Source: Roseovarius albus
GTDB taxonomy: Bacteria; Pseudomonadota; Alphaproteobacteria; Rhodobacterales; Rhodobacteraceae
Assembly (NCBI RefSeq): GCF_900172335.1
Contig: NZ_FWFX01000009.1
Coordinates: forward strand, 62,001-126,000
Length of the DNA stretch: 64,000 nt
Reading direction: 5' to 3'
Shown: piece after piece, positions 29,051 through 48,534 of the stretch
Layout: every line of letters begins with the position of its first letter
How positions within the stretch are numbered: position 1 is the stretch's first letter
Made by a program: the position numbers and the translations under genes
The notes under the pieces: model-generated
Told to the model about the DNA's origin: nothing
The model's database searches: none
The model's input: only the letters and a program-made list of their open reading frames with translations

Positions 29051-30177
29051 CAACCCTTGCGCGGCTTGGCGGGATGCTCGAGGCGCTGGCGGCACGCCAG
29101 CGCCTGCGTCAATTGCAGCCGCGTGAAGGTTTGGACTTTGCCTCGAATGATTACCTAGGGCTCGCCGACTCCGAAGCCCTACGTGAAGCCGCACAATCGG
29201 CTTTGGCGCGTGGTGTTTCCCTCGGCGCGGGTGGCTCGCGCTTGTTGCGCGGTAACCACCCCGAACATCAGGCACTGGAATTCGAAGCCGCCGCATTCTT
29301 TGGAACTGAGGCAGCGCTCTATATGGGTGGTGGCTTTCAGAGCAATCAGGCGATCTTTTCAACCCTGCCTGCAGCGGGTGACCTGATCCTGCATGATGAA
29401 CTGATCCACGCCAGTGCTCACGAAGGGATGCGCCTTGGTCGCGCAGAAACTCGGGGCTTTGCGCACAACGACATTGAAGACGCAAAGCAAGTTCTGAGCA
29501 CATGGCGTGCCGAAGGCAATGGCGGCCAGATCTGGATTGCAGTTGAAAGCGTTTACTCGATGGAAGGGGATATCGCGCCATTGGCCGATTTGGCCGCATT
29601 GGCACGAAATGAATCCGCCATCTTGATTGTGGATGAAGCCCACGCCACGGGCGTGTTCGGACCACAGGGTCAAGGGCTCGCCCATGGGTTGGATGCCGAA
29701 ATCCTCACCCTGCACACCTGCGGCAAGGCGCTTGGCGTTTCGGGCGGTTTGATCTGTGGTGCCACGGTGATCATCGATACGTTGATCAACAAAGCGCGTC
29801 CCTTCATTTTTGCGACGGCACCCACTCCACTTAATGCGGCACTGGTGCGTGCCAGTCTGCGGCAAATGCAAAACCAGCCAACGCTCGTCTCTGGAGCCAG
29901 CAACCGAATGATGCATGCCCATTCTGAGGCGAAACGTCTGTGTGGCCTGGATGGTTTCGAAAGCCAGATCCTCCCGGTCATTGTCGGCCCCGACGGAGCG
30001 ACCATGGCGCGCGCCAAGGAGCTTCAATCCCAAGGGTTCGATATCCGCGGCATCCGCCCACCAACGGTGCCGAAGGGAACGTCCCGATTACGTGTTTCCA
30101 TCACCGGCAACGTCACACACGCCGACATCACATCCCTGTTCAAGGCCATCTCACAACAGCAAGCGGAGGCCGCATGA
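29047..30177 (+). CDS. bioF: 8-Amino-7-oxononanoate synthase
   Basis: The 376-residue alpha-oxoamine synthase has [42 protein letters not shown] and the PLP lysine in [11 protein letters not shown]. It condenses pimeloyl-ACP with alanine. Overlaps of four bases with bioB before it and bioD after it show tight coupling. Confidence 0.95.
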
Positions 30178-30794
30178 GCCCGTTGATCGTTACCGGAACC
30201 GATACCGGCATTGGCAAAACTGTTTTTTCGGCGGGCCTCACTGCCGCGCTTGGCGCAACCTATTGGAAGCCGGTACAATCCGGCTTGGAAGACGCAACTG
30301 ACACTGAAACCGTAGTGGCCCTGTCTGGCTGCAAAACCCTGCCCGAAGCCTATCGCCTGCCACTGCCCGCATCACCCCATTTGTCCGCCGAAGATGCCGG
30401 AGTTGAGATCGATCTGGCGCAGCTGGAAATACCACAAGTGGATGGCCCTTTGGTGGTTGAAGGCGCAGGCGGTGTCATGGTGCCGCTCACCCGGTCAACC
30501 TTCTATCTCGATCTTTTCGCCCATTGGCAGGCCCCAATAATTTTGGTTGCCCGCACAGCGCTCGGCACCATCAATCACACTGCCCTTTCCCTGATGGCAT
30601 TGCGCAATTCCAATTGCTCGGTGGTCGGAGTCGTGTTTAGCGGCGAAGCTGTACCAGACGTCGAAAAGACCATCGTTCAAATGTGCGATGTGCCTCACCT
30701 TGGACGATTGAACGTCTTAAGCGAAATAACCCCCGAAACGCTGAAAGAGGCCTTCGCAGCCATTGACATCGAGACCATCCGAGGTGCGCTATGA
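30174..30794 (+). CDS. bioD: Dethiobiotin synthetase
   Basis: The 206-residue protein has the P-loop GTDTGIGKT (residues 8-16), WKPVQSGLED and VEGAGGVMVPL. It closes the ureido ring using CO2 and ATP. The ATG at 30174 overlaps the bioF stop; the longer frame upstream is a shadow of bioF. At about 206 residues it is slightly shorter than the usual 220-230. Confidence 0.94.
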   Translation: MSPLIVTGTDTGIGKTVFSAGLTAALGATYWKPVQSGLEDATDTETVVALSGCKTLPEAYRLPLPASPHLSAEDAGVEIDLAQLEIPQVDGPLVVEGAGGVMVPLTRSTFYLDLFAHWQAPIILVARTALGTINHTALSLMALRNSNCSVVGVVFSGEAVPDVEKTIVQMCDVPHLGRLNVLSEITPETLKEAFAAIDIETIRGAL

Positions 30795-32077
30795 CGCCGC
30801 TTGAGTTTGATGCAAACCACCTTTGGCACCCCTATACCAATGTCGCCAAGCCCGGCCCGATGCACCTGATCACCGAGGCCGAGGGCGTTTGGCTGACACG
30901 CGATGATGGCACCCGGATGATCGACGCCATGTCATCGTGGTGGTGCACCATTCATGGCCACCGCAATTCGGTGATCACAGAAGCGGTGAAACAGCAGATT
31001 GATCAGATGCCGCATGTCATGTTTGGCGGTCTGACCCACAATCCGGCCATCGAGCTGGGCAAAAAGATGATTGACCTTTTGCCCGACGGTCTGGATCGGA
31101 TCTTCTACTGCGACAGTGGCTCGGTCTCCGTCGAGGTCGCGATGAAAATGGCGGTCCAATATCAGATTGCACAGGGGCATACTGGCAAGGTCGAATTCGC
31201 CACGATCAGCGGCGGCTATCACGGTGACACATGGAAGGCGATGAGCGTCTGCGACCCAGTCAACGGCATGCATGGATTGTTCCGCGGAGCCCTGTCGATC
31301 CAGCACTTCCTGCCACGGCCGCATGTACGGTTGAATGACGAATGGCCACAAGATTCTCAGGTCAACGGTCTGGCGGCACTTGAGCAGCTTCTGGCAGAAA
31401 AAGGCGATCAGATCGCAGCCCTGATCCTTGAACCCATCGTTCAGGGTGCAGGGGGAATGTATTTCTATCACCCAGCATGGCTGAAGGGTGCAAAAGCCCT
31501 GTGTGAAGCGCATAATGTGTTGTTGATTTTCGACGAAATCGCCACAGGCTTTGGTCGAACTGGCTCACTTTTCGCCATGGATCTGGCAGAGGTCACTCCT
31601 GATATCGTCTGCCTAGGTAAGGCGTTGACCGGAGGTCATATTTCCTTTGCAGCGACCGTTACAAGCAAGGCCGTTGCCCATGGCATTGGCGAAAGCGAAG
31701 CAGGCGTTTTCATGCATGGCCCAACCTACATGGCCAACCCGCTGGCCTGTGCTGCTGGGATTGCCAGCCTCAGCCTGCTGGAAGACGGACAATGGCAGGG
31801 CAGAGTCGCGCAGATCCAAACCCAGATGCAAACAGAACTGGAACCTGCGCGCGGCCTTCCGGGGGTTGCCGACGTCCGGGTACTGGGGGCCATTGGTGTC
31901 ATTGAAATGCACGATTGGGTCGATCCAAGCGTTGCGCATCAGTTGGCACCAGAAACAGGCGTCTGGCTGCGCCCCTTTGCACGCAACATCTATTGCATGC
32001 CCCCCTTCGTCATATCTCCAGACGAATTGAGCCGCGTTACTTCTGCAATGGTTTCTCTGGCCGGGCTAAGGTCATGA
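30791..32077 (+). CDS. bioA: Adenosylmethionine-8-amino-7-oxononanoate aminotransferase
   Basis: The 428-residue class III aminotransferase has HLWHPYTNV and SSWWCTIHGH, the BioA-specific starts, then GGYHGDTWKAM, DEIATGFGRTG and the PLP lysine in CLGKALTGG. It forms 7,8-diaminononanoate with SAM as amino donor. It overlaps bioD and bioG by four bases each. Confidence 0.95.
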   Translation: MTPLEFDANHLWHPYTNVAKPGPMHLITEAEGVWLTRDDGTRMIDAMSSWWCTIHGHRNSVITEAVKQQIDQMPHVMFGGLTHNPAIELGKKMIDLLPDGLDRIFYCDSGSVSVEVAMKMAVQYQIAQGHTGKVEFATISGGYHGDTWKAMSVCDPVNGMHGLFRGALSIQHFLPRPHVRLNDEWPQDSQVNGLAALEQLLAEKGDQIAALILEPIVQGAGGMYFYHPAWLKGAKALCEAHNVLLIFDEIATGFGRTGSLFAMDLAEVTPDIVCLGKALTGGHISFAATVTSKAVAHGIGESEAGVFMHGPTYMANPLACAAGIASLSLLEDGQWQGRVAQIQTQMQTELEPARGLPGVADVRVLGAIGVIEMHDWVDPSVAHQLAPETGVWLRPFARNIYCMPPFVISPDELSRVTSAMVSLAGLRS

Positions 32078-34961: not shown

Positions 34962-35087
34962 GTAATGTGTCACTTTAGCCGCATAAACTCACTCAACATA
35001 GCATAGAAGCGCGCAATTGCTTAAGTCCTGTTTTTCGCGAAATTCCCCCCCAAACCAAGCGTTTTGTGGTTGTGGGAGGAAAACCAA

Positions 35088-36686
35088 ATGAAAAAACAAG
35101 ATTACATTCAACAAATGGAAGTCAAACTGGCGATGCGCCAGATCGACCGCCGCCAGTTTATGCGCGGGGTGTTGGCGACGGGTTTGACAGTGACTGCCGC
35201 CACCACTTTGGCCGACCGGGCCGCAGCTGCCACCGCCCAGCGAGGTGGCAGCTTGCGCGCCGGTCTAGGCCACGGGGCAACAACCGATACGTTGGATCCG
35301 GGCCAGTTCGAAGCCGGTTTCATGATCCCAATCGGGATTGCGATCAACGGCTACCTGACCACCATGGACCCGACCAGCGCGGTGCAGCCATCAATGGCCG
35401 AATCCTGGGAGGCATCACCTGATGCCAAGGTCTGGACCTTTAAGATGCGTCAGGGGATCGAATTCCACAACGGCAAGACTGTAACCACTGATGACGTGAT
35501 CACCTCGATCAACCACCACCGCGGCGAAGGCACCACATCCGTGGCGGCGCCGCTGCTGGCCAGCGTCACCGATATTCAGGCCGATGGCGACAACATCGTC
35601 TTTATACTGGACAACGGCAATGCCGACTTCCCCGCAGTCCTGAGCGACTATCACATTCCGGTTCAGCCCGCTGTTGACGGCAAGATGGATTGGAAATCAG
35701 GTGTCGGATGCGGGCCTTATCGTCTGGAACATCTGGAGCCGGGTGTTTCGGCCCAGCTCAAGCGCTATGAAAACCACTGGAACGACCTAGAAGGTTTCGT
35801 AGATGAGTGGGAGATTCTGGCGCTGCTGGACACCAACGCACGGATGACTGCCGTGCTGACCGGCGACGTTGATGTAGCTGACAAGGTCGACGTGAAAACC
35901 GCCGGTCGTCTGGCCGGGGCTCCGGGCCTGACATTGCACAACATTGCGGGCAACCAGCACTATACCTTTGCGATGGACACGCGAAATGGGCCGTACAATG
36001 ACAACAATGTGCGCCAAGCGCTGAAATACGGCATTAACCGTGAGGAACTGGTTGAGAAAATCCTGTTTGGCTACGGCTCCATCGGCAATGACCATCCGAT
36101 TGGCACAGGTCAGCGGTATTACAACACTGAGCTTGAGCAGAAGGTCTATGACCCGGACAAGGCGAAGTACTACCTCAAAGAGGCAGGTCTGGATTCACTT
36201 GATGTTGAGCTGTCAGCCTCGGATGCGGCCTTCTCGGGCGCAATTGATGCGGGCCTATTGATCCAGAACTCTTGCGCCGGGGCCGGGATCAACGTCAAGG
36301 TCACACGCGAGCCAAACGATGGCTACTGGTCCGATGTCTGGATGAAGAAAGGTTGGGTCGCCAGCTATTGGGGTGGCCGTCCGATCGAGGATCTGATGTT
36401 CACGCTGGCCTTCAAATCGGGTGTATCGTGGAACGAAAGCTACTGGGGCAACGAGCGGTTCGATGCGCTGCTGATCGAAGCCCGCGCCGAGTTGGACGAC
36501 AACAAGCGCCGCGAGATGTATTGGGAAATGCAGGATCTGGTCGCCAATGATGGCGGCGTCGCGATCCCGATGTTTGCCTCTTACGTCTTTGCCACCCGCG
36601 ACGGCGTTGGCACGCCAGAGGTGCTGGGCTCCAACCTCGACGTTGACGGTCAGGCCTTCCTCAGCCGCTGGTGGGCAACGTCATAG
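35088..36686 (+). CDS. Family 5 ABC solute-binding protein, Tat-exported
   Basis: The 532-residue protein is of the peptide/opine/nickel-binding family 5: SWEASPDAKVWTFKMRQGIEFHNGK, then DVITSINHHRG and a C-terminal ARAELDDNKRREMYWEMQ. A twin-arginine signal (RRQFMRG at residues 24-30 and a hydrophobic run to AAAA) sends it folded to the periplasm. A good GGGAGGA site precedes ATG 35088. No permease or ATPase genes are nearby, and a terminator follows, so it must share a transporter coded elsewhere or act as a sensor. Confidence 0.88.
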   Translation: MKKQDYIQQMEVKLAMRQIDRRQFMRGVLATGLTVTAATTLADRAAAATAQRGGSLRAGLGHGATTDTLDPGQFEAGFMIPIGIAINGYLTTMDPTSAVQPSMAESWEASPDAKVWTFKMRQGIEFHNGKTVTTDDVITSINHHRGEGTTSVAAPLLASVTDIQADGDNIVFILDNGNADFPAVLSDYHIPVQPAVDGKMDWKSGVGCGPYRLEHLEPGVSAQLKRYENHWNDLEGFVDEWEILALLDTNARMTAVLTGDVDVADKVDVKTAGRLAGAPGLTLHNIAGNQHYTFAMDTRNGPYNDNNVRQALKYGINREELVEKILFGYGSIGNDHPIGTGQRYYNTELEQKVYDPDKAKYYLKEAGLDSLDVELSASDAAFSGAIDAGLLIQNSCAGAGINVKVTREPNDGYWSDVWMKKGWVASYWGGRPIEDLMFTLAFKSGVSWNESYWGNERFDALLIEARAELDDNKRREMYWEMQDLVANDGGVAIPMFASYVFATRDGVGTPEVLGSNLDVDGQAFLSRWWATS

Positions 36687-36732
36687 GCTCCCTGTCAGTT
36701 CATCGTTTGAAGTGTCGATGAGTGGCAATCTG

Positions 36733-36766
36733 GCGTGGCGGGGCCTCAACCTCGCCACGCTTTTTT
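36733..36766 (+). terminator. Rho-independent terminator after the solute-binding protein
   Basis: GCGTGGCG (36733-36740) pairs with CGCCACGC (36753-36760), with a further G-C contribution at the loop side, followed by six T. It is the clearest terminator in the window. It separates the binding protein from the M81 gene, though read-through remains possible. Confidence 0.9.
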
Positions 36767-36802
36767 ACTATATATCTCAACTACACCTGAAGGGAGGGGA
36801 TC

Positions 36803-38278
36803 ATGCGGCTGTTCATGGCGACCCTGTCCACAGAGACCAATACGTTTTCACCGATGCCCACGGGGCCATCGGGGTTCAACGAATATTTTCTGCGTCACGG
36901 CGATGCCACGCAAGAACCGCCTAACCTGATGACCGAAGCCCTTCATATCTGGCGCGCAAAGGCCGAGGCGTTGGGCTGGGACGTAGTTGAGAGCCTTTCG
37001 GCCATTGCCGAACCGGCCGGGCGAACAATGCAATCGTATTATGAAGCACTGCGCGATGAGATTTTGGGCGATCTGGAACTGGCAGGCGGCGCCGATATCG
37101 TACTGTTGCAACTACACGGTGCGATGGTGGCCGAAGACGAGGATGATTGCGAAGGCGATATCATCACGCGAGTGCGGACGATCTGCCCCGACGCCGTGTT
37201 GGGGCTGGCGCTGGATCAGCATTGTCACCTGACCGAGCAGATGATGCAGGCCAGTGACTTGATCGTCGCGTTCAAGGAATATCCGCATGATGACGCCACG
37301 GCCCGAGCAGAAGAGTTGTTTGACATGGCGCGGCAAACCGCCGCGGGTGAAATCAATCCGGTTATGGCAAGCTATGACTGCCGGATGGTGCATATGTACC
37401 TGACCAAAACCGGCGCGATGCGGGGATTTGTCGACCGGTTGAGTGCAACCGAACAAGAGCCGGGTATTCTGTCGGTGACGCTGGCGCATGGATTTCCTTG
37501 GGCCGATGTCGAGGATGTGGGTACACGGATGTTGGTGATTGCGGATGGCGCCCCCCATTTGGCACAGGAGACGTCAGAACGTTTGGCGCAGGAATTCTTC
37601 GCTTTGCGTCATGAGGTGACGGGGCAGTTTGTCTCTTTGGATCAAGCGTTGGAGGAAGCTATGGCCCATCCATACGGCCCCGTGGTTTTGGCCGATATGG
37701 GTGACAATTCAGGCGGTGGAGCACCCGGCGATTCAACCTTTGTATTGCGGGCGATACTGGAGCGCGGCCTCGCAAACGTGACAACCGGGATTTATTGGGA
37801 TCCGGCGGCAGTTCGGATCTGCGAAGATGCAGGCGAAAACGCGCACCTGACTCTGCGCATCGGTGGCAAGACCTGTGCAGATTCTGGCGACCCAGTTGAT
37901 ATCTCGGTGAGCGTGATGAAAATCGCCAAAGGCCTTGGACAGCATCTTGGCAAAGGGTTGGAGCCCTTGGGCACGATGGTCTGGCTCAAGACCGCCAATG
38001 ATATTGATATCTTGATCAACGACCTGCGTACGCAGGTCTACCACCCCGAGGCCTTTACTCAGCTGGGGATTGATCTAAAGGCCAAGCATCTCGTGACGGT
38101 GAAGTCGTTGTTCCATTTCTACGCGCCCTTTGCCGAGATTGCTGCGAAGGTGATTCAGGTGGCAACACCCGGCGGCACCTCACCCCGGTTTGCGAAACTG
38201 CCGCTGACCAAACGCACGACCCCATGGTGGCCTAGGGACGAAGATCCATTTTCGGTCGAGGAAATTTCTGCCGCATAA
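36803..38278 (+). CDS. M81 family metallopeptidase (MlrC-like)
   Basis: The 491-residue protein matches the MlrC/M81 family: ETNTFSPMPTG at residues 11-21, LLQLHGAMVAE, DQHCHLTEQM and KEYPHDD (metal and catalytic region), and LADMGDNSGGGAPGDS in the C-terminal domain. The founding member opens linear microcystin, but most homologues sit by peptide ABC transporters and their substrates are unknown. A strong GGAGGGG site precedes it. With the preceding binding protein it suggests uptake and cleavage of a small modified peptide. Confidence 0.88.
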   Translation: MRLFMATLSTETNTFSPMPTGPSGFNEYFLRHGDATQEPPNLMTEALHIWRAKAEALGWDVVESLSAIAEPAGRTMQSYYEALRDEILGDLELAGGADIVLLQLHGAMVAEDEDDCEGDIITRVRTICPDAVLGLALDQHCHLTEQMMQASDLIVAFKEYPHDDATARAEELFDMARQTAAGEINPVMASYDCRMVHMYLTKTGAMRGFVDRLSATEQEPGILSVTLAHGFPWADVEDVGTRMLVIADGAPHLAQETSERLAQEFFALRHEVTGQFVSLDQALEEAMAHPYGPVVLADMGDNSGGGAPGDSTFVLRAILERGLANVTTGIYWDPAAVRICEDAGENAHLTLRIGGKTCADSGDPVDISVSVMKIAKGLGQHLGKGLEPLGTMVWLKTANDIDILINDLRTQVYHPEAFTQLGIDLKAKHLVTVKSLFHFYAPFAEIAAKVIQVATPGGTSPRFAKLPLTKRTTPWWPRDEDPFSVEEISAA

Positions 38279-38310: not shown

Positions 38311-38967
38311 CTAATCTTGTGCAAAATGCCCTGGAAACATGCCCGACAAAAATTTTTGAATCAAAGACACAGCTTCCTCACGAGAGAACCCATCCATATC
38401 AGATAGAAAGTGTACCCACATGCCCTCGAGCAGGGCGAAAGTCCCAAAGGTCGCCTGTCTTGCGCTGAGCTGGCCGCCGACACTGTGCTCACGTGTGATA
38501 TGCTCGAACGCCTTCTGCAGGATACCTTTCAAGCGCTCATCCTGAGTGCTGCTGTACTCGGAAATCCCCGGATGAGAATGCGCAACACCGCGAAATGCGT
38601 GCCAAACCTTGGCCGACCGTTCATTTAATAGGTTTGGGCCCAAATCCGTGCGCACAACCGCCATTATGATGGCCTCGGGATCGCCACCCGCATGCTTTAG
38701 GCTTTTCTCCAGTTCGGCGTAATACACCTCGCTGTAATACTTGGCGGCGCTGGAGAGCAATTTGTCTTTCCCGCCGAAGTGCAAATGGATCATGCCACGC
38801 GATAAATCGGCGCGCTTGATGATGCTTGTGACCGTCGTGTCGGTGATTCCAATTTCGGCGATTGTATCCAGTGTCGCATCAATTAAAGCCTGCCGACTCC
38901 CCTCCGGATCACGCTTAGACGCGCGCTTTTTCCCTTTTGATTCTTTGTTTTTATCCAATGTTTCCAT
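38311..38967 (-). CDS. TetR family regulator
   Basis: The 218-residue protein has a basic N-terminal tail, then a TetR HTH (TIAEIGITDTTVTSIIKRADLSRG) and a helical ligand domain similar in size to BetI-type regulators. The ATG at 38967 follows AAAGGA, and the GTG just before it was not used. It is divergent from the transporter and catabolic genes and a perfect dyad lies between, so it is probably their repressor, released by the imported amine or a product. Confidence 0.88.
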   Translation of the reverse strand: METLDKNKESKGKKRASKRDPEGSRQALIDATLDTIAEIGITDTTVTSIIKRADLSRGMIHLHFGGKDKLLSSAAKYYSEVYYAELEKSLKHAGGDPEAIIMAVVRTDLGPNLLNERSAKVWHAFRGVAHSHPGISEYSSTQDERLKGILQKAFEHITREHSVGGQLSARQATFGTFALLEGMWVHFLSDMDGFSREEAVSLIQKFLSGMFPGHFAQD

Positions 38968-39037
38968 CACATTGGTTCCTTTCTTAGGAATTCTTCAACT
39001 GCAAGATTGACACAACTGTCGTCAATGTAACAGTATT

Positions 39038-39057
39038 TAATGGACAAGCGTCCATTA
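39038..39057. promoter_or_regulatory. TetR operator at the transporter promoter
   Basis: TAATGGAC (39038-39045) and GTCCATTA (39050-39057) are perfect eight-base arms around AAGC. A TTGACA at 39007-39012 could be the -35 element of the plus-strand promoter, placing the dyad near the transcription start. An ATG at 39040 lies inside the left arm, which argues that it is not the permease start codon. Confidence 0.75.
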
Positions 39058-39087
39058 GCAACATCGAAAAATACAAGGTGCAGCCGG

Positions 39088-39948
39088 GTGATCAACCTTC
39101 GAAGCGAAACAGCCAAAGGATATGCATTGAGCGCGCCAGCCACGCTCTATGTCGGCTTTCTGGTGGCAGCGCCTTTGGCCATTCTGATCGCCTATTCTTT
39201 TTGGACACAGACTTACGTCACACTCGACAAAACCCTGACCCTTCAAAACTACCGCGACGCCCTTGCCGACCCACTGGTTCGGCACCTACTGCTGCGCTCG
39301 ATCATGATCGCAGGGGCGGTCACTGCCGTTACCGTCGCGACAGCTTATCCCATCGCCTACTTCATCGCGATGAAGGCCAATAAGAAAACGATCTGGCTGT
39401 TGCTGATCACTATTCCGTTCTGGTCCAGTTATCTGCTGCGCGTCTTTGCCTGGAAGCTCATCCTTGGATTCAACGGGGTGATGAACTCGGCTCTCCTCTG
39501 GATGGGGTTGATTGATGAGCCGCTGACCTTCTTGCTCTACAACGAGTTTGCCGTGGTTCTAACGCTCGCACATGCTTGGGCACCCTTCGCCATTTTGCCA
39601 ATTTATGTGTCACTGCAGAAAATCGACCCCAGCCTCTTGGAAGCAGCAACCGATCTGGGAAACAGCAAGTTTCAGGCGTTTCGCCGGGTGACACTGCCTC
39701 TGACTATTCCTGGCATCATCGCCGCCTGTCTGATCATCTTTATCCCCACTGTTGGCGATTACGTCACGCCCTCACTCGTGGGCGGATCAGATGGCAAGAT
39801 GATCGCTAACCTTATTCAGGTTCAATTTGGTGCTGCTAATAACTGGCCACTTGGGGCAACGCTGTCACTCATGGCAATGCTCTCTGTCGGATTTGTCGCA
39901 ATCGTTCTGGTCATCACCGGCACCGCATTGGGGAAACGTATCAGATGA
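39088..39948 (+). CDS. ABC transporter permease, spermidine/putrescine type (PotB-like)
   Basis: The 286-residue protein has six membrane segments and the EAA loop EAATDLGNSKFQAFRRVTLP that contacts the ATPase. The family is the polyamine/Fe type of permeases. The start was set at GTG 39088, which follows AAGGTG, because the ATG at 39040 has no ribosome site and lies in the TetR operator. It overlaps the next permease gene by four bases. Confidence 0.88.
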   Translation: MINLRSETAKGYALSAPATLYVGFLVAAPLAILIAYSFWTQTYVTLDKTLTLQNYRDALADPLVRHLLLRSIMIAGAVTAVTVATAYPIAYFIAMKANKKTIWLLLITIPFWSSYLLRVFAWKLILGFNGVMNSALLWMGLIDEPLTFLLYNEFAVVLTLAHAWAPFAILPIYVSLQKIDPSLLEAATDLGNSKFQAFRRVTLPLTIPGIIAACLIIFIPTVGDYVTPSLVGGSDGKMIANLIQVQFGAANNWPLGATLSLMAMLSVGFVAIVLVITGTALGKRIR

Positions 39949-40727
39949 GCCGCCCTTCCAAACTCACAATCTACGCCTTTGCCTATCTCGGGTTCTTGTA
40001 CCTGCCTGTTCTGTTCTTACCCCTGTTCTCCTTTAACAGCGGCACCATTGTGGCCTTCCCGATCAAGGGTTGGACGCTGGATTGGTATCGCAAGCTGGGT
40101 GAGCAGGATGCGCTCATTCAAGCCCTGTGGAACAGCCTCACAGTCGGGTTGATCGCGGCCGTACTGGCGACCTCTCTGGGCCTCTTCGCCGCGCGCGCCT
40201 TTGTGCGCTACCGTTTCCGCGGCCAACGTGCCTCTGAAGGGCTGGTGATGCTGCCATTGGTCATCCCGGGCATCATTGTGGCCTCGTCCATGCTGGTCTT
40301 GTTTTTGTTCATCGGCCTGAAGCCATCCCTGACTTCAGTTATTTTGGGTCACACCTTCTTGGCGCTGCCTTTTGCTGTGTCCATCTTGAAGTCGGCTTTT
40401 GACGACTTTGATGCGTCCTTGGAAGAAGCTTCATATGACCTTGGCGTTGGCGTATTCGAAACCTTCTACCGCGTCACTCTGCCCGTTGTTGCGCCCGGCA
40501 TCATTGCCAGCATTCTGGTGACCTTCACCGTCAGCTTTGACGAATTTGTTCTGGCCTTCTTCCTGTCCGGCAATCAACCCACCCTTCCCGTCTACATCTG
40601 GGGGCAGATCCGTTTTCCGGCGAAACTCCCCAATGTTCTGGCCCTGGGTTCCATCCTGCTTCTCATGTCGGTCCTATTACTGCTCTTGGCCGAATATTTC
40701 CGCCGCCGCTCATCAAGTTCCAAGTGA
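39945..40727 (+). CDS. ABC transporter permease (PotC-like)
   Basis: The 260-residue protein has six membrane segments (FAYLGFLYLPVLFLPLFSFNS first) and an EAA loop in EEASYDLGVGVFETFYRVTLP. It pairs with the preceding permease as a PotB/PotC-like heterodimer. It is coupled by an ATGA overlap. Confidence 0.92.
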   Translation: MSRPSKLTIYAFAYLGFLYLPVLFLPLFSFNSGTIVAFPIKGWTLDWYRKLGEQDALIQALWNSLTVGLIAAVLATSLGLFAARAFVRYRFRGQRASEGLVMLPLVIPGIIVASSMLVLFLFIGLKPSLTSVILGHTFLALPFAVSILKSAFDDFDASLEEASYDLGVGVFETFYRVTLPVVAPGIIASILVTFTVSFDEFVLAFFLSGNQPTLPVYIWGQIRFPAKLPNVLALGSILLLMSVLLLLLAEYFRRRSSSSK

Positions 40728-40733
40728 GGTATC

Positions 40734-41834
40734 ATGACTGAAACCAATATCATAAAGTTGCGCGGTGTCGAAAAGCGCTATGGCAGTTTTACCGCCGCAA
40801 CCGGGATCAATCTGGAACTGAAAGAGGGCGAGTTCTTCTCTCTCCTCGGCCCCTCCGGCTGCGGCAAAACCACTGTTCTGCGGATGATTGCCGGCTTTCA
40901 GGAGCCCAGCGAAGGGCATATTGAAATCGACGGGGTCAGCATGGACGGTGTGCCCGCCAACAAACGCCCAACCAATATGGTATTCCAAAGCTACGCAATT
41001 TTCCCGCATCTGAATGTTGGGGACAACGTGGCTTATGGGCTACGCGGTCGGGTCGCCAAACCCGAGATCGAAGAACGCGTCGCCGAAGCGCTTGAGATGG
41101 TGGAACTTGGCGGCCTGCAAAAACGTGGTGCGACTGAGCTTTCCGGCGGGCAACGCCAACGGGTCGCCCTAGCTCGCGCCCTGATCATGCGGCCCAAGGT
41201 TCTGTTGCTGGATGAGCCACTGTCAGCCTTGGACAAGAAACTGCGCGAACAGATGCAGTTCGAGATGCGCAACCTGCAGCAATCTCTGGGCATTACCTTT
41301 GTCATGGTCACACACGACCAGTACGAGGCGATGACCATGTCCGACCGCATTGGTGTCATGTTCCAAGGGCGGTTGATGCAGGTGGATACCCCCACCATGC
41401 TTTATGCCCGCCCCTGCAACCGCGAGATTGCCAGCTTCATCGGTGAGATGAACATTCTGCCCGCGGCGGTCCAGAACGAGCAAGCAGAGACCAGCATGAC
41501 CGTGGACATGGCCGCCTTTGGTAAAATCGAGATCGAGAAGAATCCGAACGTGACCAACCGCGCTAAAAACATCATCGTTGGCATTCGGCCCGAACAGCTG
41601 GAAATCTCGCCCGACAAACCCGCGGACTATCCCGCGACTCTTCAAGGCACGGTCAGCAACGTCGCCTTCTACGGCGAGAACGTTCACTATCACGTCAAAA
41701 CCGAAACCTTCGAAAAACCCATCTCTGTTTCGGTGCCGAACTATTTTCACACAGTCGATTTTCAACGTGATGACAAGGTCTGGCTTGGGGTTCAGGGCGC
41801 ATCTGTCATCGATCTTGGACAAGACAAACAATAA
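40734..41834 (+). CDS. ABC transporter ATPase (PotA-like)
   Basis: The 366-residue protein has Walker A GPSGCGKTT, signature LSGGQRQRVALARAL, Walker B VLLLDEPLSALD and the switch histidine in MVTHDQ. A C-terminal TOBE domain (IRPEQLEIS onward) marks the polyamine/sugar importer type. It is six bases after the second permease gene. Confidence 0.94.
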   Translation: MTETNIIKLRGVEKRYGSFTAATGINLELKEGEFFSLLGPSGCGKTTVLRMIAGFQEPSEGHIEIDGVSMDGVPANKRPTNMVFQSYAIFPHLNVGDNVAYGLRGRVAKPEIEERVAEALEMVELGGLQKRGATELSGGQRQRVALARALIMRPKVLLLDEPLSALDKKLREQMQFEMRNLQQSLGITFVMVTHDQYEAMTMSDRIGVMFQGRLMQVDTPTMLYARPCNREIASFIGEMNILPAAVQNEQAETSMTVDMAAFGKIEIEKNPNVTNRAKNIIVGIRPEQLEISPDKPADYPATLQGTVSNVAFYGENVHYHVKTETFEKPISVSVPNYFHTVDFQRDDKVWLGVQGASVIDLGQDKQ

Positions 41835-41852
41835 TCCAACGGGAGACTAACA

Positions 41853-42911
41853 ATGAAAATGCAAACACTAACGGCTTTCGCCATCACAACCGCCCTTTGT
41901 ACCGGCACTGCAAACGCCGGGGGGGCAGACCTGACCGTCTTTGACTGGTCTGGGTACGAGGATCCGGGATTCTTTGGCACTTATGTCGAAAAACATGGCG
42001 AATCCCCGACCTATTCCTACTTCGGCAGCGTCGAAGAGGCCTTTACCAAGCTGACCTCCGGCTTTGGTGCCGATCTGGCGCATCCCTGCTCGGATGCTGT
42101 GCGTAAATGGGTGGCTGCCGATCTGATCCAACCATTGGACGAAAGCAAACTGACCAATTGGGCGGCGCTTTTGCCAGAGATCAAAGAGGTCGATGGCATC
42201 GTGATCGACGGCAACCTCTATATGCTGCCGTTTGAATGGGGCAACACCGGATTGATCTATCGCACCGACAAAATTGCAGATGATCAGGTGTCGATCCAGC
42301 TACTCGCAGACCCTGCCTATGCCGGAAAAATCGCCATCCCCGATGCGGCGTCTTCAGCCTATGCGTTGGCGTCCTTGGCCACAGGGAATGGCGCGGATTA
42401 CACCAATTTGAGCGATGAGCAGTTCCAACAAGCCTCGGATTTCTTGCGCTCGATTCACCCAAACGTCCGCTTCTACTGGTCAGACGCTGGTCAACTGGAT
42501 CAGGCCATGACCAGTGGCGAGATTGAAATGGGCTGGGCCTGGAACCAATCCGAGCTGAACCTGATCTGGAACGAAGTGCCTGCCAAGATGATGCGCGACA
42601 TCGACAAGGGGATTGCGACTTGGGTTTGCGGCTATGTTCACCTGAAATCCTCGACCACGCCCGAAGATCAGATCTATGATCTGTTGAACGCCCTGACGGA
42701 ACCGGCCAGTGGTCAGTACATCATCGAAAACTGGGGTTATCCGCACTCGAACGCAGAGGCGTTTGAAATTTCGGATCAAGCCACGATTGAGGCTTATGGC
42801 TTCGATGACCCTAAGGCCTTCTTTGATGGTAGCCTGTTCTTTGATGCGGTGAATCCGGAACTTGAAGCAAAGATGCTGAGCGAGTTCGAGCGGATCAAAG
42901 CCGGCTTCTAA
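41853..42911 (+). CDS. Spermidine/putrescine-type periplasmic binding protein (PotD-like)
   Basis: The 352-residue protein has a Sec signal (MKMQTLTAFAITTALCTGTANA) and the PotD layout: LTVFDWSGYEDPGFF, then SDAVRKWVAADLIQPLDESKL and LPFEWGNTGLIYRTDK. Such proteins bind polyamines and also other amines and betaine-like compounds, so the ligand is open. A stem-loop follows the stop, as is common where the binding protein is made in excess over the next genes. Confidence 0.9.
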   Translation: MKMQTLTAFAITTALCTGTANAGGADLTVFDWSGYEDPGFFGTYVEKHGESPTYSYFGSVEEAFTKLTSGFGADLAHPCSDAVRKWVAADLIQPLDESKLTNWAALLPEIKEVDGIVIDGNLYMLPFEWGNTGLIYRTDKIADDQVSIQLLADPAYAGKIAIPDAASSAYALASLATGNGADYTNLSDEQFQQASDFLRSIHPNVRFYWSDAGQLDQAMTSGEIEMGWAWNQSELNLIWNEVPAKMMRDIDKGIATWVCGYVHLKSSTTPEDQIYDLLNALTEPASGQYIIENWGYPHSNAEAFEISDQATIEAYGFDDPKAFFDGSLFFDAVNPELEAKMLSEFERIKAGF

Positions 42912-42928
42912 TCTCAACTTGAATACGG

Positions 42929-42949
42929 GGAACCCGGACAGGGTTCCCT
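42929..42949 (+). promoter_or_regulatory. Stem-loop between transporter and catabolic genes
   Basis: GGGAACCC (42929-42936) pairs perfectly with GGGTTCCC (42942-42949) over a five-base loop. The following CTCTCTCC is not a clean U run. It may act as a partial terminator or as a 3' end that protects the binding protein mRNA. Confidence 0.6.
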
Positions 42950-42977
42950 CTCTCCAAACACGAAAGAATGCGCGCGA

Positions 42978-45047
42978 ATGTCTGACGCAAATCCATATGG
43001 CCTGCTATTTGAACCGGTTAAAATTGGTCCGGTAACGGCCAAGAACCGCTTCTATCAGGTGCCCCACTGCACCGGTCTGGGGCATGTCCGGCCCCGCGCT
43101 GATGCCGGTGTGCGAGGCATGAAAGCAGAAGGTGGCTGGGCCGTGGTCTCCAATCAGGAAACGGAGATTCACCCAACGTCTGATCTTGGACCATTTGCCG
43201 AAGGCCGTCTATGGGATGCCCGCGATGTTCCTGCACTGCGCCTGATGACAGAGGCGGTGCATAAACATGATGCACTTGCTGCCATACAGTTGGTTCATAA
43301 CGGAAATCATGCGCAAAACCATATCAGCCGCGCGCCCGTTCTGGCCCCATCTGAGATGTCTATTGATCTTGCGCAACCCAAACAGGCGCGCGCGATGGAC
43401 AAGGCTGACATCCGCAATCTACGTCAATGGCACCGTGATGCGGCCAAGCGCGCCAAAGACGCTGGGTTCGACATCATCTATGTCTATGCAGGACACAATA
43501 TGACCATCGCGCAGCACTTCATGCTACCGCACATGAACCAGCGCAGTGACGAATACGGAGGATCACTGGAAAACCGCGTCCGCCTGACCCGTGAACTTTT
43601 GGAAGATACACTCGACGTTGCGGGTGGCGACTGCGCCGTTGCCCTCCGTTTTGCCATCGATGAAATGCAAGGCCCCGACGGGATGCAAGCGGCTGAGGAA
43701 GGCCGTGCTGTTGTCGAACTGCTCGCCGACCTGCCCGATCTGTGGGACGTGAATGTCGCTGACTGGTCGAATGACTCGGCCACCACACGGTTCCAATCAC
43801 AAGATGGGTATCAGAATGACTATCTGGCCTACGTAAAGCAGGTCACGAACAAACCTGTCGTCGGCGTGGGCCGCCTGACCTCGCCCGATATGATGCTGTC
43901 GATGGTGAAAAAGGGAATCGTCGATCTGATCGGGGCCGCTCGTCCTTCCATTGCTGATCCCTTCATCCCAACCAAGATCAAAGAAGGTCGCATCGACGAG
44001 ATCCGCGAATGCATCGGCTGCAATATTTGCGTCGCCTCCGACAACATTGGTATCCCCATCCGCTGCACGCAAAACCCAACCATGGGCGAAGAATGGCGGC
44101 GTGGCTGGCACCCAGAGAAAATTGCACCCCAAGTGTCCGACACCGACACACTGGTTATTGGTGGAGGTCCTGCCGGGCTGGAATGTGCCATGCAATTAGC
44201 CCGACGCGGCTACGGCGTCACCTTGGCCGAAGCACGATCAGAATTTGGAGGCCGTGTCCTGCGCGAAAGCCAACTGCCCGGTTTGAATGCCTGGGCACGG
44301 GTGATGGACTATCGCCTGAATGACCTGAGACAACGCGCGAATGTGCAGATGTTCACTGACAGTAAGCTGGATCCTGAACAGGTTGCAGAACTGGGCATCA
44401 AGCATGTCTTTGTGGCCACCGGTGCAACATGGCGTGCTGACGGAATTGGGCGCAGCACGCAACGGCACCCACCACAGATCGCACCAAATGCGCACATCCT
44501 GACACCTGATGACATCATGACTGGCGCGCAGTCTCCGGAGGGCCCTGTCCTGATCTTCGATGACGATCAGATTTATCTGGCCGGTGTCATCGCTGAAAAA
44601 CTGGCGAAAGAGGGGCGCGAAGTGATCTTTGCCACCCCCGACAGTCTGGTCTCCGGCTTCACCGCAAACACGCTGGAACAACACCGCATTCAGGCGCAGC
44701 TGATCGAGCTTGGCATCGACATCCGCTGCAACCAGTCGCTCACAAACCTGACACCCAATGGTGCGCAACTAAGTTGCACTTTCACCGGCCGCAATACTGA
44801 AGTGCACTGCGCATCGGCGGTACTCGTCACTGAACGCCACCGGGAAACCGCGCTTTACAAGGCATTGCAAAATCTCGACCTGACCACATTGGAACTGATC
44901 GGTGATGCTGCCTCACCCGGTTTGATCGTTGATGCCATCTTTGCAGGCCATCAGGCCGCACGCGACTTCGAACGCGACCCGAAAGAGGTGGAGCAACAAT
45001 ACTTCCACCGCGAAATAATCTCTTTAGAAATGGACGAGGTGCTGTGA
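42978..45047 (+). CDS. Trimethylamine-dehydrogenase-like FMN/FeS/FAD demethylase
   Basis: The 689-residue protein follows trimethylamine dehydrogenase from end to end. It has an FMN barrel with NRFYQVPHC, where Cys31 matches the TMADH Cys30 that binds 6-S-cysteinyl FMN, then a 4Fe-4S site with Cys345, 348, 351 and 363, and a C-terminal FAD/NAD-like domain from LVIGGGPAGLECA. Compared with TMADH as I remember it, the aromatic bowl keeps one Trp (Trp263) but has Glu61 for Tyr60 and an Asp/Asn stretch for Trp355. So the substrate is likely another N-methyl amine or amino acid, as in the DgcA and StcD relatives. Confidence 0.85.
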   Translation: MSDANPYGLLFEPVKIGPVTAKNRFYQVPHCTGLGHVRPRADAGVRGMKAEGGWAVVSNQETEIHPTSDLGPFAEGRLWDARDVPALRLMTEAVHKHDALAAIQLVHNGNHAQNHISRAPVLAPSEMSIDLAQPKQARAMDKADIRNLRQWHRDAAKRAKDAGFDIIYVYAGHNMTIAQHFMLPHMNQRSDEYGGSLENRVRLTRELLEDTLDVAGGDCAVALRFAIDEMQGPDGMQAAEEGRAVVELLADLPDLWDVNVADWSNDSATTRFQSQDGYQNDYLAYVKQVTNKPVVGVGRLTSPDMMLSMVKKGIVDLIGAARPSIADPFIPTKIKEGRIDEIRECIGCNICVASDNIGIPIRCTQNPTMGEEWRRGWHPEKIAPQVSDTDTLVIGGGPAGLECAMQLARRGYGVTLAEARSEFGGRVLRESQLPGLNAWARVMDYRLNDLRQRANVQMFTDSKLDPEQVAELGIKHVFVATGATWRADGIGRSTQRHPPQIAPNAHILTPDDIMTGAQSPEGPVLIFDDDQIYLAGVIAEKLAKEGREVIFATPDSLVSGFTANTLEQHRIQAQLIELGIDIRCNQSLTNLTPNGAQLSCTFTGRNTEVHCASAVLVTERHRETALYKALQNLDLTTLELIGDAASPGLIVDAIFAGHQAARDFERDPKEVEQQYFHREIISLEMDEVL

Positions 45048-46246
45048 TGGCGCAAGATGATCTGCAATTGATGCGTGACTTGGTTGATAATCAACCGGAC
45101 GGGTTTGCCCTGCCCCGGCATTTCTACACGTCTCAGGATGTCTACGAGCACGATATCAAGGCCTATTGGAACCACAGCTGGATCTGGGTTGGCCACGTCA
45201 GCCAGATCCCCAATCCCGGTGATTATTTCCTGTTCGATTATGCCAAGGAAAGCATCATCGTAGTCCGCGACCGCGAGGGTGAAGTGCGCGCACATATGAA
45301 TGTCTGCCGCCACCGGGGGTCGCGCGTCTGCACAGAAAAGCAGGGCAACGCCCGCGTGTTTTCCTGCCCCTACCACGCATGGACCTTTGACCTAAGTGGC
45401 AAGCTCCGTGGTGGCCGCGCCATGGGTCCAGATTTTGATCCATCGAAATACGGGCTTTTCCCGGCGCAGATCCGCATTTTCGAAGGGTTGATCTTTGTCT
45501 GCGCCTCAGAAGATGCCCCACCGATTGACGCCGGTTTGTCAGAGCTGCAAACCCATGCGGCCCCCTTCGACTTTGCCAATGTGAAGGTTGCGCATGAGGC
45601 ATCATACCCCGTGCCTGCCAACTGGAAACTGGCGTTGGAAAACTACATGGAATGCTATCACTGCGCCCCCTCGCATAAGGAGTATTCGCGTAGCCATAGC
45701 CTGAAAGACCCTGCTGAAATGGAAGGCCTGCTTGAACCGCTGCAAGAACGGTCCTGCGCGATCGGGCTGAAAACCGAAGAGGTCAATCAAACCGGCACAG
45801 ACTCTGCTGGCCCTGCTGCAGATGTGTATTGGCGACGCTACCCATTGTTCGAAGGCTACCAAACCGGCAGCAAAGATGGCCAACCCCTGGCTCCGCTCTT
45901 GGGCACGCTCACCGGTTTTGATGGAGGTGCCACCGATATGCAGATCGGGCCGCTGAACAACTTCCTGATCTATGCAGATCACGTTGTCGGCTACCGCTTT
46001 GTACCCACATCGTTGCAGGAAACAGATATCCAGATTGTTTGGTATGTGCGTGGCGATGCCGAGGAAGGCATAGATTACAACAAGGACGATCTGACCTGGC
46101 TCTGGCATGTCACTTCCCTCGATGACGAGCGGATCATTCGCCACAATCAGGAAGGCGTCAATTCGCACCGATTTGAACCAGGGCCTTTGTCAGACATGGA
46201 GTGGGGGATTTTGACCTTCTACCACAGCTATTTGGCCATGATCTGA
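45047..46246 (+). CDS. Rieske non-haem iron oxygenase, alpha subunit
   Basis: The 399-residue protein has a Rieske site with Cys87, His89, Cys107 and His110 (CRH, then CPYH) and a mononuclear iron site in NYMECYHCAPSH (His205, His210). The NYMECYHC form is typical of the glycine betaine, carnitine and stachydrine N-demethylating group rather than of ring dioxygenases. It overlaps the flavoprotein stop as TGATG. No ferredoxin-reductase gene is nearby, so the electron donor must be coded elsewhere. Confidence 0.88.
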   Translation: MAQDDLQLMRDLVDNQPDGFALPRHFYTSQDVYEHDIKAYWNHSWIWVGHVSQIPNPGDYFLFDYAKESIIVVRDREGEVRAHMNVCRHRGSRVCTEKQGNARVFSCPYHAWTFDLSGKLRGGRAMGPDFDPSKYGLFPAQIRIFEGLIFVCASEDAPPIDAGLSELQTHAAPFDFANVKVAHEASYPVPANWKLALENYMECYHCAPSHKEYSRSHSLKDPAEMEGLLEPLQERSCAIGLKTEEVNQTGTDSAGPAADVYWRRYPLFEGYQTGSKDGQPLAPLLGTLTGFDGGATDMQIGPLNNFLIYADHVVGYRFVPTSLQETDIQIVWYVRGDAEEGIDYNKDDLTWLWHVTSLDDERIIRHNQEGVNSHRFEPGPLSDMEWGILTFYHSYLAMI

Positions 46247-46306
46247 CATCCCACTTCGTGACCCTCGACAAATTTCCGAATTTTCATGGCTGCAAGGAGA
46301 TAGCCA

Positions 46307-47656
46307 ATGACCGCGCACAACACCAACTGGGACAACGAGCACTTCTTTCACCCGTGGGAAGGCATGGAAACGCTTGGCCAGAACGACCGAGCCTATATCG
46401 AAGGGGGCGAAGGCATCTATGTCCGCAATGATCGCGGTGAACGCCTGATGGATGGTCCCGCTGGAATGTGGTGCGTGCAGGTTGGGTACGGGCGCGAGGA
46501 GATCGCCGACGCGATGGCTGATCAAGCACGACAATTGGCCTATTTCTCGCCCTTCAACAACACCAGTTCCATCAGCACGCGCTTTGCCCATGAAATCGCC
46601 CGTCGCGCACCCGGCGACTTGAACAACGTGTTCTTCACCACGGGCGGATCCACGGCAGTCGACACCGCCATTCGCTTTGTTCATTTCCGCAACAACCTGA
46701 TGGGCCGGCCCGAGAAAAAGATCATCATCTCACGGCAAAAAGCCTATCACGGCAGCACCTATCTAGCTGCCAGTGTCAGCGGCAAAGAACGTGATCGTCT
46801 CTGGCTCGATAAGGCCGATCACCTCAGCCACTTCCTGCCCAACGTGAACCCGCTACACCGGTCAGACGGACAATCGATTGACGCCTTCTTGGACGAAAAA
46901 ATCGCCGATCTGGAAAACGCCATCCTGACACTGGGCGCGGATAAGGTTGCCGCTTTCATCGCAGAGCCGATTCTGGCCTCGGGCGGGGTGATCGTGCCGC
47001 CCAAGGGGTATCACAAGCGGTGCCTGGAGGTCTGCCACCGCCACGATGTCCTTTACATTTCAGACGAAGTTGTCACCGCTTTTGGTCGTTTGGGCCATTG
47101 GTTCGCGTCTGAGGATGTCTTTGGCATTCAACCTGACATCATCACCTGTGCAAAAGGCATGACCTCGGGCTATGTCCCAATGGGGGCGGCCATCGTTTCC
47201 GACCGCCTGATCGCTGATCTGACCGGCATGGGTGCAACATTTTCAAACGGTTACACCTACTCCGGCCACCCAGTCAGCGCCGCTGCGGGCCTGAAAAGCA
47301 TGGAGATCATCGAGCGTGATGGGCTGCTAGAGCATGTTCAGGCCCTGTCACCCCTGTTTCAGGAAAGACTGTCCTCGCTGCAGGACATCGATATCGTCGT
47401 TGACACGCGGGGTATGGGCTTTATGGGCTGTGTAGAATGCTCTGCTGATGGCAGCAAAGACGCCTTGCTGGATCAAGACTATGCTATTGGCGCACTGATC
47501 GACGAGGAATGTCAGAAACGCGGATTGCTCGTGCGCCCGTTGATCAACATGTGTGTCACCTCGCCGCCTCTGATCATGAGTGCGGATCAGATCAACCAGA
47601 TGTTCGATATTCTCGAGACTGGCATCAAAACCGCTGCAGACCGGAGGGGTGCGTAA
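46307..47656 (+). CDS. Class III aminotransferase (omega-amino acid type)
   Basis: The 449-residue PLP enzyme has [41 protein letters not shown] and the PLP lysine in [13 protein letters not shown]. This matches the omega-amino acid:pyruvate group that acts on beta-alanine, GABA, putrescine or similar amines. It follows the Rieske gene by 60 bases with an AAGGAG site. In the cluster it could take the amine left after demethylation. Confidence 0.88.
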
Positions 47657-47664
47657 GCGCCCCT

Positions 47665-48534
47665 TCACGTTTCTTTGCCAGCGGCCTTCACATCGTGGAA
47701 CTTGTTTTCCCGCGTGTCGCCAAACAGATGGCGGTTCTCCAGAAACTCGCGCTGCTGGCGGTAAAAATCATTGAGGAAATTCCAATAGTCATTTGGCAGC
47801 AACCGTTGTTGATAACCGATCTTTCGCACAATGGTACGGGCCACCTCTTGCATTCGTTTGGTTTGCTCCAGACTCTGAGGCCGGGATCGCAGGATCTCTT
47901 CCAGCACCTGTAACTCGTACCGCCCATAAACCCCTAACTGCCCTGTATCAAAGACGAAACCATTGCCCTTCGTGGCCGACCGCGTACTCAGGTCAGGCAT
48001 CAAAACCAGTTGCGGCTGATCAACCACCAACGTGCCGGCGATCATGTCCCCCAAACGCTGGCGGTGTTTATTCAACAGTGGCACTAACAAGATCCCCACC
48101 ATCCAGAAAAACAACATCCAGCCGGTCAAAGATGTATCGAACTGCCCCGATAACAAGGTCGCAATCGGCAAAAACACCTCGACCTCTTTCATCAGGTTTC
48201 GCGCGACAATCTGATGCGGCGTCAACCTCCCGCCATTGTCTGAAACCACCCGAATCTTAACAATGCGTTTGCCAATCGTGCGTCCGTTCCACACCAGTTC
48301 AGCAAAAATGTAATAGGGGATGCGGATCAGGAAGGTCAGCAAGAAAAACAGTGTTGCCAGTAGCCCCCAATCAAACACACCCATCCAAATCAGCACCACA
48401 AACAGCAAGAACATCCCGCCAAATGTGATCAGAATATCCAAAAGCTGCGCTCCAAGCCGAGATCCAGCCGAGGAGATCTCAAAGGCAATCGGTACGCCCT
48501 CCGGCGGCAGCAGCTCGGCCTTGCGTCCGATCAT
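47665..48534 (-). CDS. RDD family membrane protein
   Basis: The 289-residue protein has the RDD domain: SAGSRLGAQLLDILI in the first helix and the WNGRTIGKRIVKIRV segment, with three to four membrane helices up to about residue 165. A soluble tail rich in Glu, Gln and Arg follows. Start at 48534 overlaps the SpoIIM-like stop (ATGA). It is the last gene of the seven-gene MoxR operon. RDD proteins are implicated in ion transport, but the role here is unknown. Confidence 0.85.
   Translation of the reverse strand: MIGRKAELLPPEGVPIAFEISSAGSRLGAQLLDILITFGGMFLLFVVLIWMGVFDWGLLATLFFLLTFLIRIPYYIFAELVWNGRTIGKRIVKIRVVSDNGGRLTPHQIVARNLMKEVEVFLPIATLLSGQFDTSLTGWMLFFWMVGILLVPLLNKHRQRLGDMIAGTLVVDQPQLVLMPDLSTRSATKGNGFVFDTGQLGVYGRYELQVLEEILRSRPQSLEQTKRMQEVARTIVRKIGYQQRLLPNDYWNFLNDFYRQQREFLENRHLFGDTRENKFHDVKAAGKET

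Follow-up and report, generated by a model that had tools for sequence, protein, structure and literature searches.

We describe a probable operon for the uptake and N-demethylation of a quaternary ammonium compound in Roseovarius albus, at positions 38311-47656 of the window (the whole 64,000 nt stretch analysed, positions 62001-126000 of contig 11 in a genome of 4.29 Mb; most of the named genomes closest to it at this locus are Rhodobacterales). Open reading frame (ORF) and family searches gave eight intact ORFs, one of them a divergently transcribed TetR gene and the other seven all on one strand, and these fall into the families named in the initial annotation: a TetR regulator, a PotBCAD importer, a flavoprotein, a Rieske oxygenase and an aminotransferase. 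We read the locus as an operon dedicated, under local regulation, to the uptake and N-demethylation of one quaternary (N-methylated) ammonium compound, with a probability of about 0.62. This reading draws on the gene content, its conservation, an exchange of the Rieske gene for an MttB-superfamily gene in relatives, a shared operator with a single exact site in the genome, and the residues of the binding pocket and active sites. The first demethylation step is well argued; the action of the flavoprotein, the order of the steps and the substrate are weaker parts of the argument.

Conservation of the operon and exchange of demethylase genes

The operon is conserved and is not a chance arrangement. 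The order TetR-potBCAD-flavoprotein-Rieske recurs in Ruegeria, Leisingera, Mameliella and others, gaps between adjacent operon genes, where these do not overlap, reach 66 bases at most, and the flavoprotein and Rieske genes, which overlap each other, both travel with the transporter. Below, L-numbers denote compared loci and G-numbers sampled genomes. A scan of named genomes was queried with the Rieske protein, and the best 80 of 588 confirmed places were taken; among these, 38 loci have a Rieske protein of at least 58% identity, and the flavoprotein adjoins it in 30. The presence of the Rieske gene in L028-L107 is ascertained by the query itself, and only the flavoprotein search of 394 genomes sampled from the family is free of that bias. 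The flavoprotein clade (identity of at least 61%) was found in 16 of the 394 genomes and a Rieske protein of at least 60% identity in 10. Both were present in nine genomes, the flavoprotein alone in seven (one of which, G245, has part of a Rieske gene where its contig ends), the Rieske protein alone in one and neither in 377. The aminotransferase (E-value at most 1e-150) occurs in 46 of the 394 genomes, 10 of these being among the 16 of the flavoprotein clade; the flavoprotein stands without it in six genomes, it stands without the flavoprotein in 36, and 342 genomes have neither. Since the genomes are related, p-values for these co-occurrences are indicative only.

A demethylase gene lies beside the flavoprotein gene in 14 of the 16 genomes: Rieske only in eight (including the G245 fragment), MttB only in four and both in two. 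Three of the MttB-only loci (L144-L146, in G043, G241 and G200) have the order TetR-potBCAD-flavoprotein-MttB-aminotransferase, without a Rieske gene. The fourth (L147, in G201) has potBCAD-flavoprotein-MttB, with no aminotransferase gene in the 4.8 kb beyond; its sequence ends on the TetR side. None of these four is among the 19 of the 394 genomes that match the window Rieske protein at an E-value of at most 1e-100. L045 and L047 (the latter from an R. pomeroyi strain) carry both genes, in the order flavoprotein-Rieske-MttB-aminotransferase. The extra gene belongs to the MttB superfamily (PF06253, 335.5 bits; TIGR02369, 361.7 of 525 bits); the L047 copy is far from the solved chains 2qne and 9yce (about 208 bits), and the other operon copies are 74-89% identical to it. 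The window operon has a Rieske gene and no MttB gene, and the 14 MttB genes elsewhere in the genome are at most 41% identical to the L047 copy. As a side observation, the 4.29 Mb hold 14 MttB-family matches, together with 12 matches to the Rieske alpha-subunit family.

Forty-two loci were retained for a quick flavoprotein tree with three outgroups, after rows with a flavoprotein match below 58% or spanning at most 500 residues had been dropped. All four Pot genes are present in 26 of them, seven with Rieske, 15 with both demethylases and four with MttB. The sequence of L148 ends just past its Rieske start, short of any MttB gene that might follow. The window groups with one MttB-only row and two double rows (support 100), and the minimum number of state changes is four for Rieske and six for MttB, on a tree in which 13 of the 42 inner branches are open. 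The flavoprotein residues C31, E61, W263, D266 and D355 are identical in 42/42 rows, whichever demethylase adjoins, and the three outgroup rows differ.

Known members of the MttB superfamily remove methyl groups from trimethylamine and quaternary amines (PMC12478193; PMC8604678). Because genes of this superfamily take its operon slot in relatives, the window Rieske protein would be an N-demethylase, and the exchange is the best evidence that it may act on the same compound as MttB. We infer that the two enzymes act at the same step. A single substrate would suit the fact that the flavoprotein residues are identical across the three kinds of operon and that these share the operator.

Rieske fold, importer pocket and operator

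The Rieske model (predicted local distance difference test score, pLDDT, 91.7) matches stachydrine demethylase 3vca with Z 46.8 and a root mean square deviation (rmsd) of 2.1 over 384 aligned residues; 3n0q is tied with it (46.6), and CntA 6y9c is far below both (33.8). Residues C88, H90, C108, H111, E203, H206 and H211 are kept in 28/28 aligned Rieske rows. They supply the C-H/C-H motif and a mononuclear iron site with a bridging Glu, which place the protein among the Rieske quaternary-ammonium oxygenases. Glu203 stands in place of the usual Asp in all 28 rows, as Glu does in the Stc2 and CntA rows; we take this replacement to be a mark of these oxygenases. Of the proposal in the initial annotation, import of a quaternary ammonium compound and its first demethylation by the Rieske enzyme are supported by the fold, the MttB exchange and the BetI-like regulator described below.

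More distant Rieske relatives (34-46% identity, used as context only) adjoin other demethylation genes, of the MttB, DMGDH and GcvT types. Rieske genes with 69-70% identity but no flavoprotein or transporter gene beside them occur in L041, L062 and L016/L125 (Pseudohalocynthiibacter, Roseovarius and one further genome). In L044 (11581-15172) genes for a flavin adenine dinucleotide (FAD) subunit and a molybdenum subunit of the xanthine dehydrogenase type follow the Rieske gene, and in L043 (11310-14024) a related small subunit and a large ORF do so.

For the binding protein (mean pLDDT 88.8) the best structural match is YdcS 6nlp (Z 35.5, rmsd 2.5, 324 aligned), followed by PotD 1pot (Z 34.5, rmsd 2.6, 319 aligned). 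The aromatic cage W32, Y35, W230, W257 and Y296, equivalent to W34, Y37, W229, W255 and Y293 of PotD (numbering counted on the 348-residue chain 8y5h), is invariant in 19/19 binding proteins, an alignment that contains no MttB-only operon. PotD D168, E171 and D257, which we take to be the acids that bind polyamine nitrogens, align with A165, S168 and C259 of the window protein. Across the 19 rows the D168 column holds A, G, S or N, the E171 column Ser in 14, and the D257 column Cys in all. A control PotD encoded on the same contig (L173) keeps Glu at E171 and Asp at D257. Because the cage is kept and the anchoring acids are lost, a classical polyamine such as putrescine or spermidine is an unlikely ligand; judged by its pocket residues, the protein would fall outside the PotD/PotF polyamine binders. 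An aromatic cage without anchoring acids suits a quaternary ammonium group.

In a published transporter screen of R. pomeroyi, potFGHI (SPO3466-3469) is the system assigned to polyamine uptake. A PotF-like binding protein (337 bits to the PotF variant 7oyx) is encoded upstream of the operon in Leisingera caerulea (L117, 1998-4079), where it adjoins an agmatinase gene scoring above its cut-off; a PotF-like gene also lies upstream of the operon in L030-L032 and L038.

The regulator is BetI-like in sequence, yet it scores below the cut-offs of both BetI models (95.7 of 118 bits for NF001978 and 93.9 of 201.3 for TIGR03384). The gap between its gene and potB contains TAATGGAC-aagc-GTCCATTA. The pattern ATGGAC-N4-GTCCAT is exact in 26 of 29 such gaps and near-exact in L040, L051 and L146, loci without a TetR match of 38% or with a stretch of more than 500 bases having been dropped from the comparison. 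Scored by itself, the repeat exceeds 20 shuffled versions of its region in 14 of the 29 gaps; the operator argument is the recurrence of the same sequence. The window's genome has one exact site, at the operon, and no site for a control pattern read backward; a search through further exact sites for a co-regulated reductase or aldehyde dehydrogenase gene in this genome thus returned only the operon's own site. In 13 further genomes the exact operator occurs once in 10, twice in two and not at all in G200, whose operon (L146) has a one-base variant; 12 of these 14 sites are at the operon, and the control pattern occurs once each in two genomes. That all three kinds of operon (Rieske-only, MttB-only and double) have this operator suggests a single inducer. 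As the palindrome covers the first potB ATG (39040), translation of potB probably starts at the GTG at 39088.

Proposed pathway and alternative readings

The PotD-fold protein and PotABC would, from their family and pocket, import the substrate, and the BetI-like TetR protein would keep the operon repressed at its one operator and release it on binding the substrate or an intermediate. The Rieske enzyme, fed by a reductase encoded elsewhere, would remove the first methyl oxidatively as formaldehyde, a step suggested by its fold, the bridging Glu203 and the MttB exchange. In relatives an MttB-superfamily methyltransferase would carry out the same step, passing the methyl to a corrinoid protein. 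The flavoprotein would next oxidise the tertiary or secondary amine so formed, most likely taking off further methyls, and the aminotransferase would pass the primary amino group set free to a keto acid. Our guesses at the substrate, about equally weighted, are a betaine of an omega-amino acid (of the beta-alanine or gamma-aminobutyric acid type) and an N-methylated diamine.

The aminotransferase belongs to PRK07036, whose model description names no substrate. Its nearest solved chain is 3i5t (467 bits), and no substrate was found for either, so the attempt to infer the substrate from this enzyme failed. In other loci the gene stands with a second Rieske gene and a PotF-like transporter (L151), with amine-oxidase-like, GcvT-like and MttB genes (L153), with two Rieske genes, a transporter, a flavoprotein and an aminomethyltransferase (Parasedimentitalea), or with PotBCAD genes and no demethylase found there (L152).

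The flavoprotein had been called TMADH-like, which holds at the level of the family; histamine dehydrogenases are nearer. They are the nearest solved chains (711 and 688 bits, aligned over about 680 residues), followed by 6l6j (644) and TMADH (516). The cysteine that binds flavin mononucleotide (FMN), Cys31, the 4Fe-4S cysteines and Trp263 are kept. The aromatic bowl of TMADH, which we take to be Tyr60, Trp264 and Trp355, is lacking in all 42 clade rows, so that the protein would not be a TMADH proper. Positions 61 and 355 hold Gln and Asp in the histamine dehydrogenases and Glu and Val in 6l6j; histamine dehydrogenase has Gln, Trp and Asp at the three bowl positions. A relative in S. meliloti (54% identity) has the same Glu and Asp as the window protein. 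From its active-site residues the flavoprotein may either demethylate or deaminate.

Several points weigh against the reading of the locus as a demethylation operon for one quaternary amine. No reductase gene lies in the operon, all seven FAD_binding_6 places of the genome being elsewhere. In the alignment to 1djn, Glu61 and Asp355 of the flavoprotein occupy the positions of TMADH Tyr60 and Trp355; because these residues form no TMADH bowl and Asp355 matches histamine dehydrogenase, deamination is possible. A substrate with a second positive charge would fit these two acids, which sits uneasily with the acids lost from the binding protein. In the importer comparison, the E171 column is Asp in five of the 19 binding proteins, and in the control PotD, D168 and W229 are themselves replaced, by Gly and Tyr. 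The aminotransferase gene lies within 7 kb in only 23 of the 42 loci. Of the 38 named-genome loci, six have no adjoining flavoprotein (L041, L052, L053, L056, L061 and L062), one has a fragment (L048) and one is cut off (L042). Lastly, in two of the 16 flavoprotein-clade genomes (L149 and L150) the flavoprotein gene occurs without transporter, Rieske or MttB genes.

The flavoprotein might instead be a histamine-dehydrogenase-like deaminase, acting after or in place of demethylation. It would cleave a C-N bond to give ammonia, methylamine or dimethylamine and an aldehyde, and the aminotransferase would act on the second amino group of a diamine-type substrate. The two best solved relatives fit this scheme, as does the alignment of D355 with the Asp of both, and so do the agmatinase and PotF-like genes upstream of the L. 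caerulea operon. Histamine dehydrogenase (3k30, 6de6) shares with the window protein the positions of the FMN cysteine, the 4Fe-4S cysteines, Trp263 and Asp355, and differs in having Gln in place of Glu61, a Glu found also in 6l6j, and in the operon partners. Against the scheme stand, besides Glu61, the loss of the diamine-anchoring acids from the operon's binding protein and the presence of Rieske, MttB or both in 26/26 rows with all four Pot genes. We regard this scheme as rather unlikely. No open-licence paper pairing a Rieske protein with a histamine dehydrogenase was found.

That the operon encodes an already known betaine pathway, for stachydrine, glycine betaine or carnitine/gamma-butyrobetaine, we consider improbable, despite a Rieske protein closest to Stc2 and 3n0q in both fold and sequence. 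The stachydrine system (Stc2 and partners) has a Rieske protein of the same fold family (3vca, 4qup), and stachydrine N-demethylation uses a TMADH-like flavoprotein for the N-methylproline step; glycine betaine catabolism (GbcAB, then DgcAB) likewise places a TMADH-like flavoprotein after a Rieske enzyme as successive demethylases. Against stachydrine, the window Rieske protein is only 34-35% identical to Stc2 chains, the operon lacks a reductase gene such as that of the annotated Stc4 next to a dioxygenase gene in S. meliloti, and the Pot-type importer, the aminotransferase and the MttB exchange set the operon apart. Against glycine betaine, the GbcA model (NF058607) gives 296 bits, under half of its cut-off of 670, and GbcB is missing from the operon. 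For CntAB, a strong CntA match extends only over positions 13-221, the second piece scoring 2.0 bits, and here too the operon has no reductase gene. An aminotransferase is not known to be needed in any of these pathways. Cobalamin-dependent demethylation by the MttB superfamily (MtgBCD) differs in that the window has a Rieske gene in the slot that an MttB-type gene occupies in relatives. Judged by its sequences, the operon would fall outside GbcA, Stc, CntA, TMADH, PotD and BetI, while resembling a betaine demethylation pathway in logic. Searches of open-licence papers gave no description of this gene set or of the Rieske/MttB exchange, and the initial statement that no known pathway has exactly this set was not contradicted there. 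They gave no paper on homarine pathway genes either, leaving a homarine reading neither supported nor excluded.

Ordinary putrescine or spermidine uptake and transamination, with the oxidases as bystanders, is very improbable: the PotABC-type genes, the PotD fold and a relationship of the aminotransferase to putrescine aminotransferase 6gwi (324 bits) would fit it, but the importer, which shares fold, gene set and aromatic cage with PotABCD, has in its binding protein Ala, Ser and Cys for the three acids, two of which the L173 protein of the same genome keeps, and the flavoprotein and Rieske genes move together with the transporter.

Coordinates, neighbouring genes and significance

Table 1. 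Features of the operon region (positions in the window)
Feature	Position	Strand	Basis or remark
TetR-family regulator, BetI-type C-terminal domain, divergent from the operon	38311..38970	-	Matches PF00440 and PF13977 above their cut-offs
Second inverted repeat ATTGAC-N9-GTCAAT, possible further site	39006..39026		Not among the three best repeats of each relative
Operator ATGGACAAGCGTCCAT, inside the longer palindrome	39040..39055		Exact in 26/29 intergenic regions compared
PotB-type permease	39040..39948	+	PF00528; NCBIfam PotB 204 of 348 bits
PotC-type permease	39945..40727	+	PF00528; NCBIfam PotC 179.2 of 326 bits
PotA-type ATPase	40734..41834	+	TIGR01187 potA 366.1 bits, cut-off 355.6
PotD-fold substrate-binding protein	41853..42911	+	Aromatic cage kept, polyamine-anchoring acids lost
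FMN/4Fe-4S flavoprotein, TMADH/histamine dehydrogenase (OYE/TMADH) family	42978..45047	+	Family and structure-chain matches
Rieske oxygenase alpha subunit, quaternary-ammonium type	45044..46246	+	Family, model, alignment
Class III (omega) aminotransferase, PRK07036	46307..47656	+	NF005447 643.5 bits, cut-off 618
Terminator-like hairpin overlapping the aminotransferase gene end	47643..47666	+	Consensus match only

The hairpin at the end of the operon is weak evidence, since a consensus scan of the region found 13 terminator-type sites against 9.6 expected. Just upstream of the TetR gene (35064-38278) lie genes for a peptide-type binding protein and an MlrC/M81 metallopeptidase; among the 107 compared loci none yielded the MlrC gene, and the peptide-type binding protein turned up only in L043 (24% identity). 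A biotin synthesis-like run with BioB-, BioF-, BioD- and BioA-like ORFs, recognised by eye from the translations, occupies 28052-32077.

A second locus of similar make-up lies outside the window (L173, contig 11, 24000-42500). Its flavoprotein, of the TMADH family, has Gln, Trp and Asp as in histamine dehydrogenase; its Rieske protein is 25% identical and has an Asp bridge; and its PotD keeps two of the three polyamine acids. Further genes there encode an acetylornithine-deacetylase-like protein, a Pot-type transporter, a PaaE/GbcB-like reductase and a nitrilase-like protein.

Seawater nitrogen includes a sizeable pool of methylated amines, and in marine genomes like that of the window many Rieske and MttB genes lack a known substrate; one study states that as many as seven pfam06253 genes in a marine genome may act on diverse methylated compounds (PMC12478193). 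A swap of demethylases between two chemistries offers a direct handle on such genes, as the substrate of one enzyme predicts that of the other. We see even odds that one regulator, transporter and flavoprotein serve the same quaternary amine throughout, while the first demethylase alternates between an O2-dependent Rieske enzyme and a cobalamin-dependent MttB enzyme, with some strains having both, as a natural oxygen/B12 switch in marine use of N-osmolytes. If so, the Rieske route would lose the methyl as formaldehyde and the MttB route would keep it for folate. Rieske-only, MttB-only and double strains would then provide a handle on how the supply of oxygen and vitamin B12 shapes the use of algal methylated compounds.

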